Shown piece by piece: positions 2,151 to 7,704 of a DNA stretch of 64,000 bases (its first letter is position 1; every line of letters begins with the position of its first letter). Below the pieces are notes generated by a model, which saw only the letters and a program-made list of their open reading frames with translations, had not been told where the DNA came from and ran no database searches. Origin of the DNA: Defluviicoccus sp. (GTDB lineage: Bacteria > Pseudomonadota > Alphaproteobacteria > MPNO01); assembly GCA_028821395.1 (NCBI GenBank), contig JAPPGP010000209.1, positions 1 to 64,000 of the forward strand, read 5' to 3'. The position numbers and the translations under genes are program-made.

Positions 2151-2949
2151 CGACGACGAGATTCTGACCGGTGATGTAGCCCGCCTCGTCGGAGCAGATG
2201 AACAGCATCGCCTTGGCGAGGTCGTGGATCGTCCCCTGGCGTGGCAGCGCCTGCGCCTGGGTCATGGTTTTGAACATGTGCCGCGGCACCGAGGGGCGCT
2301 CGATCTCGGTCTGCATCACCCCGGGCCAGAAGGTGTTGACGGTAATCCCGTGCGGCCCGAGCTCGCGCGCCATCGAGCGCGACATGCCGACCATCGCCGA
2401 CTTGGAGGTGATGTAGTGGAGGTAGTTGGGGCGGCCCTTCACATGGGTGCCCGACGAGACGTTGACGATCCGCCCCCAGCCCGCCTCCATCATCGCCGGG
2501 ACGACGGCGCGGGCGCACAGCATCGAGCCGGTGATATTGACATGCATCGCCGCCTTCCACTCGTCCACCGGGAGCTCCCAGAACGGCGCCATGGTGATCT
2601 TCGAGAACACGGCGGCGTTGTTGATCAGGATGTCGATCCGCCCGAAGGCCTCCAGCGTCCGGGCCGCCATCGCCTTGACCGAATCCTCGTCGCCGACATC
2701 GGTGGCAAGCGCGAGCGCCCGGCCGTGATCCCGCTCGACCTCGGCGGCGACGCGGCCCGCGTTGTCGCCGTCGATCTCGGCGATGACCGGGATCGCGCCC
2801 TGGGCGGCGAAGTAGTGCGCGTAGCCGCGCCCGATCCCCTGCCCGCCGCCGGTGACGACGACCACCCGGCCGGCGAGGCTCGCATAGCTCGCCGTCCTGT
2901 CGACGTCGATGCGGGCATAGTCGATATGGCCGATCTCGGCGTCGGTCAT
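2128..2949 (-). CDS. Short-chain dehydrogenase/reductase (SDR)
   Basis: A classical SDR of 273 residues, NAD(P)-dependent and cytosolic. The nucleotide-binding TGGGQGIG motif lies near residue 34, the structural NNAA follows near residue 111, and the catalytic serine (NVSSG) and YxxxK (YITSK) are all present. The C-terminal DGGSSFI ending is typical. The start codon overlaps the stop of the upstream selenoprotein-like gene by 4 nt (2946-2949), so the two are translationally coupled. Within this operon it probably oxidises an alcohol or dihydrodiol intermediate; that is inference from context. Confidence 0.93.
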   Translation of the reverse strand: MTDAEIGHIDYARIDVDRTASYASLAGRVVVVTGGGQGIGRGYAHYFAAQGAIPVIAEIDGDNAGRVAAEVERDHGRALALATDVGDEDSVKAMAARTLEAFGRIDILINNAAVFSKITMAPFWELPVDEWKAAMHVNITGSMLCARAVVPAMMEAGWGRIVNVSSGTHVKGRPNYLHYITSKSAMVGMSRSMARELGPHGITVNTFWPGVMQTEIERPSVPRHMFKTMTQAQALPRQGTIHDLAKAMLFICSDEAGYITGQNLVVDGGSSFI

Positions 2950-3578
2950 GCGTCGTTCCCCGCGCGCGCCCGGGCGCCGATCTCGGCGAGGAATTTCTCC
3001 AGCGTCTCGTAGGGCTGCGCGCCGACCACGCCGTACCCGCCGGCGACGAAGGTGGGAACGCCGCTCACCCCGATCTTGCGCGAGCGCGCCCAGTCGGCAT
3101 CGACCGCGTCCCGGAAGCGCCGCTCGTCCAGCACCGCGCGCGCCTCCTCCGCCGGAAGGCCGACAGCCTCGACGATGCCGAGCAACGTGTCGGCGTCGCC
3201 GATATTTCCGCCGTCCACGAAATAGGCCCGGTACAGCGCATCGTGCAGCGCCTCGCCGCCGTCGACCGTGTCGGCCCAGGCGCCGAGCTCCTGCGCGAGC
3301 CGGCTGTTATAGGTGTGGGTGCGCCGGGAATACTCGAGCCCTTCCCCGTCCATCAGCCCCTTCATGCGCGCATAGGACGCTTCGAGGTCGTAATCGCGCC
3401 CGGCGAACAGCGCCTCCAGCGTCATCCCCTCCGCCGGGGTCTCGGGGTGCAGCGGGAAGTGCACCCATTTGAGCTCGATGTCGAATTTTTGCCTGAGCTT
3501 CTCGATACGCACGGTACTGAGATAGCACCAGGGTCAGACGTAGTCGGTGAACACCTCAAGGGTGATCGGCTCGCTCAT
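2946..3578 (-). CDS. DsbA/FrnE-like thiol oxidoreductase, predicted selenoprotein (Sec15 at an in-frame TGA)
   Basis: The protein is 210 residues if the TGA at 3534-3536 is read through, the usual length for the DsbA/FrnE (2-hydroxychromene-2-carboxylate isomerase-like) thioredoxin-fold family. The ATG at 3578 has a strong GAAGGAGG ribosome-binding site 5 nt upstream. The first 14 residues (MSEPITLEVFTDYV) are beta-strand 1, then TGA, then PWCYLS. The family consensus here is CPWCY, so TGA falls exactly on the first active-site cysteine, giving U15-P-W-C18. The rest of the fold is intact, including the cis-proline region SGVPTFV. A SECIS-like hairpin lies 20 nt downstream of TGA. A conventional gene call would start at GTG 3512 and lose the active site. 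It is the first gene of the operon running to the Rieske gene. The alternative is a nonsense mutation, judged unlikely. Confidence 0.85.
3501..3521 (-). promoter_or_regulatory. Candidate bacterial SECIS hairpin of the DsbA/FrnE-like selenoprotein
   Basis: On the mRNA strand CTCAGTAC (3521-3514) pairs with GTATCGAG (3508-3501) around the loop CGUGC (3513-3509). That gives eight positions with one A-C mismatch and one G-U pair. The loop starts 20 nt after the TGA and carries G then U at loop positions 2-3, matching the known bacterial SECIS pattern (loop about 16-37 nt from UGA with an early G). SelB would bind here to deliver Sec-tRNA. The pairing was found by eye, not by folding software. Confidence 0.65.
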
Positions 3579-3861
3579 CGGGGCCTCCTTCGGGTCGAGC
3601 GGGGGCATTGTAGCGGGTGCGACCCGGGAAAGCGATTGAGGTAACGGTGGAGCATCGCGCCGAGCACAATTGGCTGGACTCGGGTGGAGACGCGATGAAG
3701 TATCGACTAGCATCGGGTCGCCCGGGAGCGGCAGAGCCCACCCATCGCGGGGATGCGCGACCGGGCGGAAGATCAAGGGCAGAAATGAAGGCGCCGGATG
3801 TCGGCAAGAGGGCCTACGCTGCGCCTGGACGGAAGACCATGACCACCTCTGACGGTGCGAC

Positions 3862-5088
3862 ATGATTACGGCGCTCAAACTATTTGACTTCAAGAATTTC
3901 GCACGAGAGACACTGGGCGCGGGACCCTTCACTGTTATTGTGGGCGCCAACGCGACCGGAAAAAGCAATATCCGCGATGCCTTTCGCTTTCTTCACGGTA
4001 TCGGTCGCGGGTATGCACTATCGGAAATCGTAGGCGGCAAACACGGGGCGGGGGGCCAACTCGAATGGGAGTCGATTAGAGGTGGTCCCCGTGAAATCAG
4101 TAGAGCCGGCAGTGGCGTCTTCGCCTTCAGCGTGGCTCTGACAGTGAAGAGTCGGAAATTTTCATATTTTGCGGGTGTGGCCTCAGAGGCATTTGGAGAA
4201 AGCGGATTCAAAATTGGCTTAGAAACTTTGGTAGTTGACAACGAGACCGTTTACCATTGGCGAAACGAAGAACTGACTCTTAATGGCGAAAAACTCGCGA
4301 AGGACACCCAGAGAATCTTTCGTCGAGACCAACCTATTTTAGCGCAGTTGCACGAAATGCAAGCAGGCAAGGACGTTGACCTACTCGTCGGTACGATTGT
4401 CGAAGCGTTCGCCAGCATGAGATTTCTCGACCTTGCACCGGATAGCATGAGACAGCCCTCCTTTCCGGGTCAGACTGTCCTGGGCGACCGTGGCGAAAAC
4501 CTCCCGTCGGTTCTCAAGGAACTTTGCGCCAAGCCGGAACACAAAGACGTCCTCATGCAGTGGACCCGTGAGCTGACTCCGATGGATATGGAAGACGTCG
4601 AATTTCCTCTCGATCCGGCCGGAAGAGTACATCTGGTGCTTCGGGAAAGAGGTAGAAAGGAGACAACCGCGTTCAGCGCCTCCGACGGAACGTTGCGTTT
4701 TCTCGCCATGCTGGCCGCTCTGCTCGGGCCCGATCCGGCGCAACTCTATTTCCTGGAAGAGATCGACAACGGCATCCACCCCTCGCGGCTCAGCTTGCTG
4801 GTCGACTTGATCGAACGGCAAACGGCCAAGGGCGGCTCGCAGGTGATCGCCACCACGCATTCACCGGAGCTGCTGACCATCATGGGAGATGTCACTTTCA
4901 ACAACACATCGGTTGTCTGTCGATTGGAAGGTGCCGATGACGCCGTAATCCGCCCGGTCGCGGAATTACCCAACGCCGCCAAGTTGAGGAAGAGCCAAGG
5001 ATTGGGACGGCTGCTGACAAGCGGTTGGATGGAAACTGCGGTCACCTTTTCCGAAGACGATGAAAATGGACGGGAAGTGTCGGAATGA
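3862..5088 (+). CDS. AAA/ABC-type ATPase (OLD/RloA-like), candidate defence gene
   Basis: A 408-residue ABC-family ATPase of the AAA_21/OLD type. Walker A is GANATGKSN at 28-36. A signature-like stretch SDGTLRFLAML, Walker B LYFLEEIDNGIHP and an H-loop ATTHSPEL follow in order. No membrane segment is seen. The gene overlaps the next one by ATGA (5085-5088), so the pair is co-translated. Base composition is visibly lower in GC than the flanks, especially 4100-4450, suggesting transfer. ATPases of this class paired with a small Toprim-fold or RloB-like protein occur in anti-phage modules such as PARIS-like systems; defence is inference. The ATG at 3862 has no strong ribosome-binding site. Confidence 0.8.
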   Translation: MITALKLFDFKNFARETLGAGPFTVIVGANATGKSNIRDAFRFLHGIGRGYALSEIVGGKHGAGGQLEWESIRGGPREISRAGSGVFAFSVALTVKSRKFSYFAGVASEAFGESGFKIGLETLVVDNETVYHWRNEELTLNGEKLAKDTQRIFRRDQPILAQLHEMQAGKDVDLLVGTIVEAFASMRFLDLAPDSMRQPSFPGQTVLGDRGENLPSVLKELCAKPEHKDVLMQWTRELTPMDMEDVEFPLDPAGRVHLVLRERGRKETTAFSASDGTLRFLAMLAALLGPDPAQLYFLEEIDNGIHPSRLSLLVDLIERQTAKGGSQVIATTHSPELLTIMGDVTFNNTSVVCRLEGADDAVIRPVAELPNAAKLRKSQGLGRLLTSGWMETAVTFSEDDENGREVSE

Positions 5089-5648
5089 ACGTCCTCGTCA
5101 TTCCCGAGGACTTCCGCAACGACCAGTACATCCTTAAGCCGCTATTCGATCGCTTGTTCAGCAACCTCGGCAAGCCCCAAGCGCGTGTCCAGGTGTGCCT
5201 GGAACCGCTGCTTGGCGGCATCCGCGAAGCGCTCAAGACCGAACGCATCCAGGAAGTCATAGACCAGTACGACGGGATGACCGACATCTTCATCCTTTGC
5301 GTCGACCGGGACGGCGACCTGGGTCGGCGAATACGCCTGAACCAGATCGAAGACGATTTCGGACCAGACCGGATTTTCCTGGCGGAGAACGCCTGGGAAG
5401 AAATTGAAACCTGGGTGCTCGCAGGCCTCGATCTGCCCAAGGACTGGATTTGGGCCGATGTTCGCGCGGAAGTTCATGTCAAGGAAGCCTATTTCGAGCC
5501 GCTTGCCGTCCAGCGTGGGGTCGCTGACGGTCCAGGCGGCGGGCGCAAGGTGTTGGCCGAGGAGGCGGCGCGCAGAATATCCGTAATCCGGCGCAAATGC
5601 CGAGGGGACTTTCACGCCTTGGCCAAACGGGTGGAGGAGGCGGTCTGA
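5085..5648 (+). CDS. Small Toprim/RloB-like (DUF4276-type) protein, partner of the ATPase
   Basis: A 187-residue protein. An acidic residue near the N-terminus (VIPEDF, E8) and a DxDxD cluster (VDRDGD, 73-78) recall the metal-binding site of Toprim-fold nucleases. The following AENAWEEIETWVLAG stretch resembles the E-x-E-x-W segment of RloB/DUF4276 proteins. It overlaps the upstream ATPase gene by 4 nt, so both are probably one functional unit, the ATPase sensing or remodelling and this protein acting as effector. Family assignment is from motif memory only; nuclease activity is inferred. Confidence 0.65.
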   Translation: MNVLVIPEDFRNDQYILKPLFDRLFSNLGKPQARVQVCLEPLLGGIREALKTERIQEVIDQYDGMTDIFILCVDRDGDLGRRIRLNQIEDDFGPDRIFLAENAWEEIETWVLAGLDLPKDWIWADVRAEVHVKEAYFEPLAVQRGVADGPGGGRKVLAEEAARRISVIRRKCRGDFHALAKRVEEAV

Positions 5649-5724
5649 CCGCACAGATTACTCTCCGACGCGCGCGCCCCGCTGGTACAATCCGCCGTCC
5701 CCGCAGCCCACACCGGGAGGAGCC

Positions 5725-6828
5725 ATGTCCGGGATCGAGTACGACACCCCCTACCACGTCCGCGAATCGCTGGTGGCGGCGCAGCGCCTGGCCTGGCGGC
5801 GCATCGCCGAGCCGGGCGCCTGGCTCGACGGGGAGCGCCGCGTGGCGGTGGCGGGCGAGGTTCGCGCGGCCGGCGACTGCGCGCTCTGCCGCGAGCGCAA
5901 GCAGGCGGTCTCGCCCTTCGCGGTCGCCGGCGAGCACGCGGCGAGCGGGCCTCTGGGCGCGGCGGAGGTCGAGCTGATCCACCGCCTGACCAGCGACCCG
6001 GGCCGGCTCCGCCGGTCCTGGGCCGAGGGGATACTCGCCGCCGGGGTGAGCGAGGAGGTCTATGTCGAGATCGTCGGCATCGTCTGCATGGTCATGATCG
6101 TCGACACCTTCCGCCGCGCGCTCGGCCTGCCGCAATTCGACCTGCCCGCGCCGGTGGCCGGGACGCAATCGGGCTACCGCGCCCCGGGAGCCCGGCGCCA
6201 CGACGCCTGGATCAGCCTGGTGCAGCCGGACGACGTGGTGGAGAGCGACGGCGACCTCTACGGCGCCGCCGCCTCGCCGGTGGTCAAGGCGCTGTCGCTG
6301 GTGCCGGAAGCCAAGCGGGCCTATTGGGATCTCGCCGAGGAGCACTATCTGCCGGGCAGCGAGATGACCGACTTCGCCACCGGAGCGCGCGCCATCGACC
6401 GCATGCAGATGGAGCTGGTCGCCGGCCGGGTGTCCGCCCTCCATCAATGCGTCTACTGAACCAGCGCCCATGCGTTCATGCTCCGTGCGAGCACAGAAGT
6501 CTCGGGCGCCGATTTCGATCTGGGCGCCGTCACCGGCGCGGCGACCGGAGACGGCGGCATCGCCGGCGGGGTGCTGCTGCACGGCTTCGCCGAGGCGGTC
6601 ACGCTCCGCGACGCGGCGCGGACGGCCGAGTTGAGGGACGCGCTGGTCGACCGGCTGGGCGAGGCGGCGATGATCGACGCGGCGGCGACCGCGGCGGCGT
6701 TCCACGGCTTCGTCCGGGTGGTGGACGCCACCGGCGCCCCGGTGGCGGGAGCGGCGGGCGGTCAGGTCACCGCGGAATTCCGCCAGGCGCTCGGCATCGA
6801 CGCGTTCTACGGCGCGCGCAACCCCTGA
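5725..6828 (+). CDS. Alkylhydroperoxidase (AhpD)-related protein, predicted selenoprotein (Sec245 at an in-frame TGA)
   Basis: Read through the TGA at 6457-6459, this is one 367-residue protein of the carboxymuconolactone decarboxylase/AhpD-related family. Around the TGA the frame gives HQCVY-U-TSAHAFMLR. The AhpD catalytic signature is CxxCx3H, so C242, U245 and H249 match it with TGA on the second cysteine. An additional N-terminal C52-x2-C55 (CALC) is present. The ATG follows GGGAGGAGCC. Conventional calling splits it into a 244-residue piece and a 116-residue piece starting at 6478-6480, neither of which has a complete active site. I recall a database family named alkylhydroperoxidase-related (seleno)protein that fits this layout. 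A SECIS-like hairpin follows. Its role is probably peroxide or thiol redox chemistry. Confidence 0.87.
6475..6498 (+). promoter_or_regulatory. Candidate bacterial SECIS hairpin of the AhpD-related selenoprotein
   Basis: TGCTC (6479-6483) pairs perfectly with GAGCA (6489-6493) around the loop CGUGC (6484-6488). The stem extends by TTC/GAA (6475-6477 with 6496-6498) across a small internal loop. The apical loop starts 24 nt after the TGA. Its five bases, and the flanking C and G, are identical to those of the hairpin in the gene at 2946-3578, although the surrounding sequences are unrelated. Found by eye. Confidence 0.68.
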
Positions 6829-6834
6829 CGCGGC

Positions 6835-7704
6835 TCAGAAGAGCGAGGGCGACTCCGGGTCGTGGCGCGCGTGGCGTGCCCTGGCGGCGCGGGGGCTCGC
6901 CACCGCGTAGCAGTAGATGCAGCCATGCGGGCAGCTGTCATAGGCGCCGATGTCGCGCGATTCGTGACAGGCGCAGCCCGGCCGGTTGCCCTTCTCCCTC
7001 GCCGCGATCGGCCGGCCCGCGACGTCGCCGAGGCGGCTTGCGTCGATGCAGCGCGCCTTACCCGCGCCGCCGGCGGCGAGACCCGGCTGGGCGCAGATCG
7101 TGGCCTCGATCCCGAACTCCCTTGCGGTGGCGGCGAGCTCGGCAACCACCCCCCGCTTGCGCCCGACCGCGGGGTCCTCCCAGGTCAGCCCCGATGTCCG
7201 GTTGGCGGCGGCGAGGTTGCGGCGCGTCTTGCGGTAGAAGCTCGCGAAGGACAGCACCGCCTCGTCGACCGCGCCGGCGAGCCCCTCGGCGAGGCGGGCG
7301 AAGCGTTCGGCATGCGAGGAGAGCGGCGTAGCGCCGGTCACGATGATGGGATCGCAGCGCCAGACGGCGGCGCGCGGCCCGAAATCCCGGGCGATCGCAT
7401 GCACCTGTTCCGCGGCGCGCGCGGCGTCGATCACCGACGTTTCGAGCGCGCGCGGATAGGCGGTGATCGTGTAGTGGACGACAAACGGGATGCCGTCCGA
7501 TGCCAGCCGGTCGAGCACCGGGCGGAACGGCGCCGCGTTCCGCGTCCAGAACACGAAGCCGGAGACCGACTCCCGGTCGAGGCGAACGGTGTAGGGCCTG
7601 CCGTAAGGGTTTCGCACCGTGCAAAACCCGGCCGCCAGGCGTCGTTCGAACCACGCGCCGTAAAAGGCCGGGATATCGGTGCGGTAGCTCGCGGACACGA
7701 TCAT
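6835..7704 (-). CDS. DUF1848 family protein with cysteine-rich C-terminus
   Basis: A 289-residue protein beginning MIVSASYRTDIPAFY, a start characteristic of DUF1848. Near the C-terminus lies GCACHESRDIGAYD followed by CPHGCIYCYA, giving a CxC...Cx3Cx2C cysteine pattern that probably binds an iron-sulfur cluster; the family has been related to radical-SAM-like or spore photoproduct lyase-like folds. Function is unknown. It is transcribed away from dnaK, sharing a 156-nt divergent region, and its end lies 6 nt from the end of the AhpD-related gene (convergent). The open frame upstream of 7704 is antisense to dnaK and is not part of this gene. Confidence 0.85.
   Translation of the reverse strand: MIVSASYRTDIPAFYGAWFERRLAAGFCTVRNPYGRPYTVRLDRESVSGFVFWTRNAAPFRPVLDRLASDGIPFVVHYTITAYPRALETSVIDAARAAEQVHAIARDFGPRAAVWRCDPIIVTGATPLSSHAERFARLAEGLAGAVDEAVLSFASFYRKTRRNLAAANRTSGLTWEDPAVGRKRGVVAELAATAREFGIEATICAQPGLAAGGAGKARCIDASRLGDVAGRPIAAREKGNRPGCACHESRDIGAYDSCPHGCIYCYAVASPRAARARHARHDPESPSLF

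Follow-up and report, generated by a model that had tools for sequence, protein, structure and literature searches.

The Defluviicoccus gene at 5725-6828 is strongly supported by its sequence as one intact gene in which an internal TGA is read as selenocysteine (Sec). The gene was studied within a contig stretch of 64,000 nucleotides, here called the window. Judged by its match to the family model, the product is an additional member of NF041238, an already recorded selenoprotein family that was first described as 'hypothetical protein 1' in the 2005 Sargasso Sea survey (PMC1088965); an NF041238-type selenoprotein is also included in the lists of PMC13188914. For the Defluviicoccus genome, this resolves a gene that ordinary callers would give as two hypothetical fragments. 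The reading that we favor, and consider probable, is that the gene encodes a 367-residue selenoprotein in which SelB and a downstream hairpin direct Sec to residue 245 of a two-lobed AhpD, which reduces hydroperoxides by a Sec mechanism. The gene and its recoding signals are as follows.

5725..6828, + strand: NF041238 selenoprotein gene, 367 residues with Sec at 245, two-lobed and AhpD-like, ending at its own TGA stop (6826-6828).
Directly 5´ of the ATG of the 5725-6828 gene, + strand: Shine-Dalgarno-like GGGAGGAG, recognized from the sequence.
6457..6459, + strand: UGA as putative selenocysteine codon, residue 245, at the second position of the AhpD CxxC; TGA in all relatives checked.
6479..6493, + strand: SECIS-like apical hairpin UGCUC-CGUGC-GAGCA, from synonymous-site fixation and pairing over 119 genes.

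The open reading frame contains a single internal in-frame stop, TGA 6457-6459, in the context SALHQCVY-U-TSAHAFMLRAS, and the C-x-[FY]-U-T motif of NF041238 is present at this TGA as CVYUTSAH. When joined across the TGA, the frame scores 425.3 bits against the NCBIfam model NF041238 (AhpD_rel_CFYUT; curated cut-off, 175 bits) and covers model positions 1-356 of 357. Taken alone, the part preceding the TGA scores 286 bits (positions 1-238) and the part following it 111 bits (positions 240-356). The two halves match separate parts of one model, with a joined score of 425 bits, which indicates that the TGA is not a chance occurrence. In comparison with four Defluviicoccus orthologues, dN/dS is 0.15-0.26 before the TGA and 0.13-0.23 after it; purifying selection is thus alike on either side, which argues that the post-TGA stretch is translated in the same frame. 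These results uphold the first-pass annotation of this DNA, which had run the frame through the TGA to yield CVY-U-TSAH (with exact coordinates, residue 245) and had taken the two halves as one gene. Its proposed name, 'alkylhydroperoxidase-related (seleno)protein', is the exact NCBIfam name of NF041238. It did not note that the family is already recorded and appears to be Sec-only, nor that the two selenoprotein genes are a divergent pair with an island between them. Similarity to studied AhpD proteins is weak, as the Pfam CMD match of the product (19.4 bits) lies below its cut-off.

If TGA 6457-6459 were an ordinary stop or a disabling mutation, the locus would hold two genes or a pseudogene, and an ATG at 6478, seven codons past the TGA, would open a 116-residue ORF. 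However, the active-site His falls between the TGA and this ATG, the low dN/dS (0.13-0.23) extends past the TGA, a single in-frame TGA is present in each of the 145 family members from whole genomes, and the hairpin is fixed at synonymous sites. We therefore regard this explanation as extremely improbable. The relatives, which the first-pass annotation had wished to see compared for chains that end before the motif, run through it.

The hairpin starts about 20 nt past UGA 6457-6459, and its loop begins 24 nt past it. From +8 to +11 after the TGA, the codons show a fixed nucleotide choice (CTC-CGT-GNG-AGC) that goes far beyond the amino-acid constraint. CTC occupies codon +8 in 115/116 genes (expected for 26% of Leu codons), CGT occupies codon +9 in 108/116 (expected for 11% of Arg), codon +10 is GCG in 66/66 Ala and GAG in 30/30 Glu, and codon +11 is AGC in 104 of the 112 Ser (expected 30%). 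Per degree of freedom, the statistic for codon choice reaches 62, 89, 20 and 46 at these four codons and does not exceed 11 at 250 positions elsewhere; relatedness inflates such counts, and the other positions of the same genes share that relatedness. In the family hairpin, UGCUC-CGUGN-GAGC(A/G), 97.8% of the stem cells are paired over 119 genes, compared with 24-65% when the stem is slid by 1 to 3 bases. The second base of the loop is G in all 119 genes, and one compensatory change occurs at the closing pair, which is U-A in one gene (L148) and C-G in the others. The hairpin emerged from this codon-level conservation: no SECIS was reported for the window by Rfam at its gathering thresholds, and neither bulk folding energy over the 48 nt that follow the TGA nor dinucleotide-shuffle z-scores of short stretches were discriminating. 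The family SECIS 12-mer occurs six times in the host genome; four occurrences belong to known paralogues, and two (contigs C54 and C120) have no Sec frame.

The host genome (4.94 Mb, 266 contigs, 100% complete, 5.3% contamination) encodes SelB (463 bits) and SelA (565 bits) adjacently on contig C71, SelD (311 bits) on contig C62, and tRNA-Sec on contig C236 (76.7 bits; identified by Aragorn as tRNA-SeC with anticodon TCA, so that two programs agree). A missing Sec machinery had been named in the first pass as grounds for doubt; selA, selB, selD and tRNA-Sec are all present. Across 385 genomes drawn from the class, SelA is above cut-off in 27/27 NF041238-bearing genomes versus 29/358 others (hypergeometric P ~3e-26). 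The relatives found supplied 14 more host genomes; SelA exceeds its cut-off in 13 of them and gives a partial match in the remaining one. This co-occurrence answers the concern that the Sec genes of the draft are contamination. In seven genomes of the class (G007, G091, G123, G227, G357, G185 and G279), an NF041238 gene and selA share a contig and are only a few kb apart, and the data suggest that NF041238 sometimes travels or is co-regulated with the Sec machinery.

A second selenoprotein gene lies on the opposite strand, and the two are separated by an insertion.

2946..3578, - strand: DsbA-like selenoprotein gene with U-P-W-C and Sec codon TGA 3536-3534 (TDYV-U-PWC); PF01323, 121 bits.
3492..3532, - strand: SECIS-like hairpin of the DsbA-like gene, apical loop CGUGC, fold z -2.0.
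3615..5669 (approximate borders), + strand: inserted island splitting the selenoprotein pair; empty site in L084, GC 53-59% versus ~70% around it.
3862-5088, + strand: island AAA ATPase (AAA_21), best PADLOC match PDC-M07A, candidate defence gene.
5085-5648, + strand: island ORF of 187 aa, no Pfam match.

The first-pass annotation had announced a second selenoprotein within 3 kb, and the DsbA-like gene at 2946-3578 with TGA 3536-3534 is that gene. It had also argued that two families with TGA at a catalytic Cys support Sec decoding, and this argument gains strength from the apical loop CGUGC, which is common to the hairpins of the AhpD-like and DsbA-like genes at SECIS distance in both, as expected if one SelB reads both genes. 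The DsbA-like gene also carries TGA at six further loci (L080, L081, L082, L084, L093 and L098). Among the other in-frame TGAs of the window with nearby Cys, only the DsbA one was recognized, and the rest were taken as probable chance occurrences.

General decoding of TGA as an amino acid (e.g. Trp, code 4) in the Defluviicoccus host would explain the open frame and nothing more. Against it, the 5725-6828 gene and both island ORFs terminate in TGA, the internal TGA of both selenoprotein genes falls at the redox-Cys site of homologous folds, and tRNA-Sec, SelA, SelB and SelD are present. We give general recoding almost no credence and retain specific insertion of Sec.

In locus L084, the Sec-DsbA and Sec-AhpD genes diverge from a spacer of ~117 bp, which represents the empty site. 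In the window, a defence-like island of ~2 kb is inserted into this spacer and does not belong to the selenoprotein. Two Betaproteobacteria have the divergent pair as well, with TGA in both genes. The pairing was observed in only some of the closer relatives of the window gene and was not found near most relatives; no earlier report of it was found in the literature searched. In other Defluviicoccus (L082 2411-4885 and L083 272-2749, minus strand), the same spacer holds a gene for an 825-aa protein with fatty-acid-desaturase-type (AlkB-like) and GlnE-like domains, a different gene from that in the window, which indicates that the spacer takes insertions repeatedly. The wider neighborhoods, viewed for the best 80 of 480 relatives, contain AMP-ligases, amidohydrolases and acyl-CoA dehydrogenases, each at no more than 12 loci, and no functional link is drawn from them. 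On the other side of the window gene, a DUF1848 protein (268 bits) that bears clustered Cys residues close to the C-terminus is encoded at 6838-7704 on the minus strand, between the selenoprotein gene and dnaK/dnaJ.

The host contains five NF041238 genes on four contigs, each with one TGA: the window gene, one on C232, two on C164 and one on C227. The five copies are scattered in the family tree, where supported branches force at least 4 label changes, which indicates that they are old paralogues or separate acquisitions and not recent duplicates. The closest relatives of the window gene come from Defluviicoccus metagenome genomes and one Rhodospirillales MAG (99% identical). Its sister group mixes Alpha- and Betaproteobacteria, which suggests transfer. 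No NF041238 relative was found in viral contigs, and when 398 genomes were drawn evenly across the phylum, only the copies of the host itself came up, which shows the family to be patchy.

All 145 NF041238 members over cut-off in whole-genome searches contain exactly one internal stop, and it is TGA. The set combines draws of the class, the Myxococcota phylum and one gammaproteobacterial order (52 + 77 + 16); the exact codon position was read in fetched sequences, and for the remaining members the match was scored as containing one TGA. In a second scan, of 84,980 species, from which the best 80 of 480 loci were taken, the Sec codon was TGA in 81/81 genes, a set that overlaps with the 145. No Cys-coding member was found among the 145 from whole-genome draws; the search for Cys orthologues of the same length, recommended in the first pass, thus came back empty. 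Such homologues commonly back up a selenoprotein assignment but are not necessary for it. Distant single-lobed AhpD proteins have Cys at the Sec-equivalent position. The Sargasso Sea paper tabulates a few Cys homologues of 'hypothetical protein 1' (PMC1088965), which may correspond to the single-lobed AhpD proteins whose match here is confined to the C-lobe (<=66 bits). At the sequence level, NF041238 appears to be Sec-only in everything examined.

According to a 2026 review (PMC13188914), Cys homologues exist for almost all selenoproteins; the review also asks why Sec is retained. NF041238, with Sec coded in 145/145 members and SelA in 27/27 class hosts, is a clean case where Sec seems indispensable. 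A bolder proposal is that the family is locked to Sec: a two-lobed, sestrin-like fused AhpD whose chemistry is impossible with Cys, maintained in genomes of Pseudomonadota, Myxococcota and Acidobacteriota as several long-standing copies each, some members having a Sec-DsbA as their redox partner. We advance this tentatively and think it somewhat less probable than its negation. If true, NF041238 would stand outside the rule that Cys homologues far outnumber selenoproteins and would offer a natural test of Sec maintenance. No statement on the Sec-only status, the two-lobed fold or the paralogy of NF041238 was found in the literature searched.

The predicted active site and its N-terminal counterpart lie in the two lobes of the chain.

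6412..6471, + strand: C-lobe active-site stretch with the AhpD proton relay E230, C242, Y244, U245 and H249, from conservation and PA0269 spacing.
5878..5889, + strand: N-lobe C52-x-x-C55, in the position that corresponds to the active pair but lacking the His; C52 in 107/116 and C55 in 108/116 genes.

E230, C242 and H249 are invariant and Y244 is present in 115/116 genes; the 116 rows were selected for C..U...H, so the invariance of C242 and H249 is partly due to selection, and a separate scan left the Sec position free. The relay spacing of 12, 2, 1 and 4 equals that of Glu36-Cys48-Tyr50-Cys51-His55 in PA0269, with Sec replacing the second Cys. The helix bearing the N-lobe CxxC is missing from a separate deep clade of seven genes. 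The AlphaFold2 model, built from the family alignment, has a pLDDT of 89.8. Its C-lobe matches D. radiodurans AhpD (6k40) with a Z of 12.8 and the structures of the debrominase Bmp8 with Z values of 12.8 and 12.7, and the best match of the whole chain is human Sestrin2 (Z 17.0 over 240 residues of both lobes, rmsd 3.4 Å, 9% identity). The first unrelated structure appears at Z 2.9. As modeled, the product is a fused two-lobed AhpD with the complete site in its C-lobe. A single-lobed AhpD-like gene with CFY-U-TQSH, sub-cut-off for NF041238, occurs at L049 202-594 in a genome with SelA, and it is possibly a relative of the ancestral Sec form.

The role suggested by these sequences is likely that of a Sec-dependent hydroperoxide or thiol-disulfide reductase. 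We infer that SelB, guided by the hairpin ~20 nt past the UGA, would insert Sec at residue 245, and that the selenolate of Sec245, activated by H249, Y244 and E230, would attack an organic hydroperoxide to form a selenenic acid, which C242 would resolve as a selenenylsulfide. A dithiol donor would then reduce the selenenylsulfide; candidates are the N-lobe pair C52/C55, the Sec-DsbA of the divergent gene and other thiol proteins of the cell, and any redox partner, Sec-DsbA included, is a guess.

The same selenoprotein could serve another chemistry, such as reductive dehalogenation in the manner of Bmp8, an AhpD-fold debrominase, or another selenolate-dependent reduction. Bmp8 matches the model as well as AhpD-like proteins do, and selenolates suit dehalogenation, as Sec deiodinases show. 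However, a shared fold shows no function, all the AhpD relay residues are present, and no halogen-metabolism gene was recognized near the gene within the window, which leaves this chemistry unlikely. Somewhat less remote, yet still improbable in our estimate, is that the protein acts mainly as a thiol-disulfide adaptor that passes electrons to a peroxiredoxin or similar, or as the oxidant partner of Sec-DsbA, with little peroxidase activity of its own. The characterized AhpD of M. tuberculosis is such an adaptor with weak peroxidase activity (PMC3141380), and both the N-lobe CxxC and the divergent Sec-DsbA neighbor conserved in Alpha- and Betaproteobacteria fit this role, but Sec-DsbA was not found near most relatives. 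Hydroperoxide reduction by Sec245 remains the reading that we prefer.

In comparison with known members of NF041238, the window protein shows the whole-length match, the same Sec place in CxxU and the downstream SECIS, with no difference in kind. The DsbA-like gene shares with known DsbA-like selenoproteins (PF01323, UxxC) the DSBA domain with UPWC, a form listed in PMC1088965 and PMC13188914, and differs in being divergently paired with an NF041238 gene. M. tuberculosis AhpD, PA0269 and the TIGR01926 peroxidase-related proteins share the fold, the helix-turn-helix site and the Glu-Cys-Tyr/His-Cys-His relay; in contrast to these single-lobed Cys enzymes, the window protein has two fused lobes and Sec in place of the second Cys. 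Sestrin2 resembles it in carrying two AhpD-like lobes in one chain. In Sestrin2, the active Cys lies in the N-lobe and only the first of the pair is kept (PMC4674687), the second being Leu, whereas the window protein has its complete site in the C-lobe with Sec second and does not have the N-lobe active Cys with Tyr/His relay that characterizes sestrins. A sequence-family link to sestrins was not found, the Pfam scan of the window protein giving only the sub-cut-off CMD match. By the predicted model, Sestrin2 and the window protein would share an architecture with the active lobe reversed, either from common ancestry or from separate fusions, and the two-lobed build of NF041238 thus offers a bacterial comparator for sestrins.
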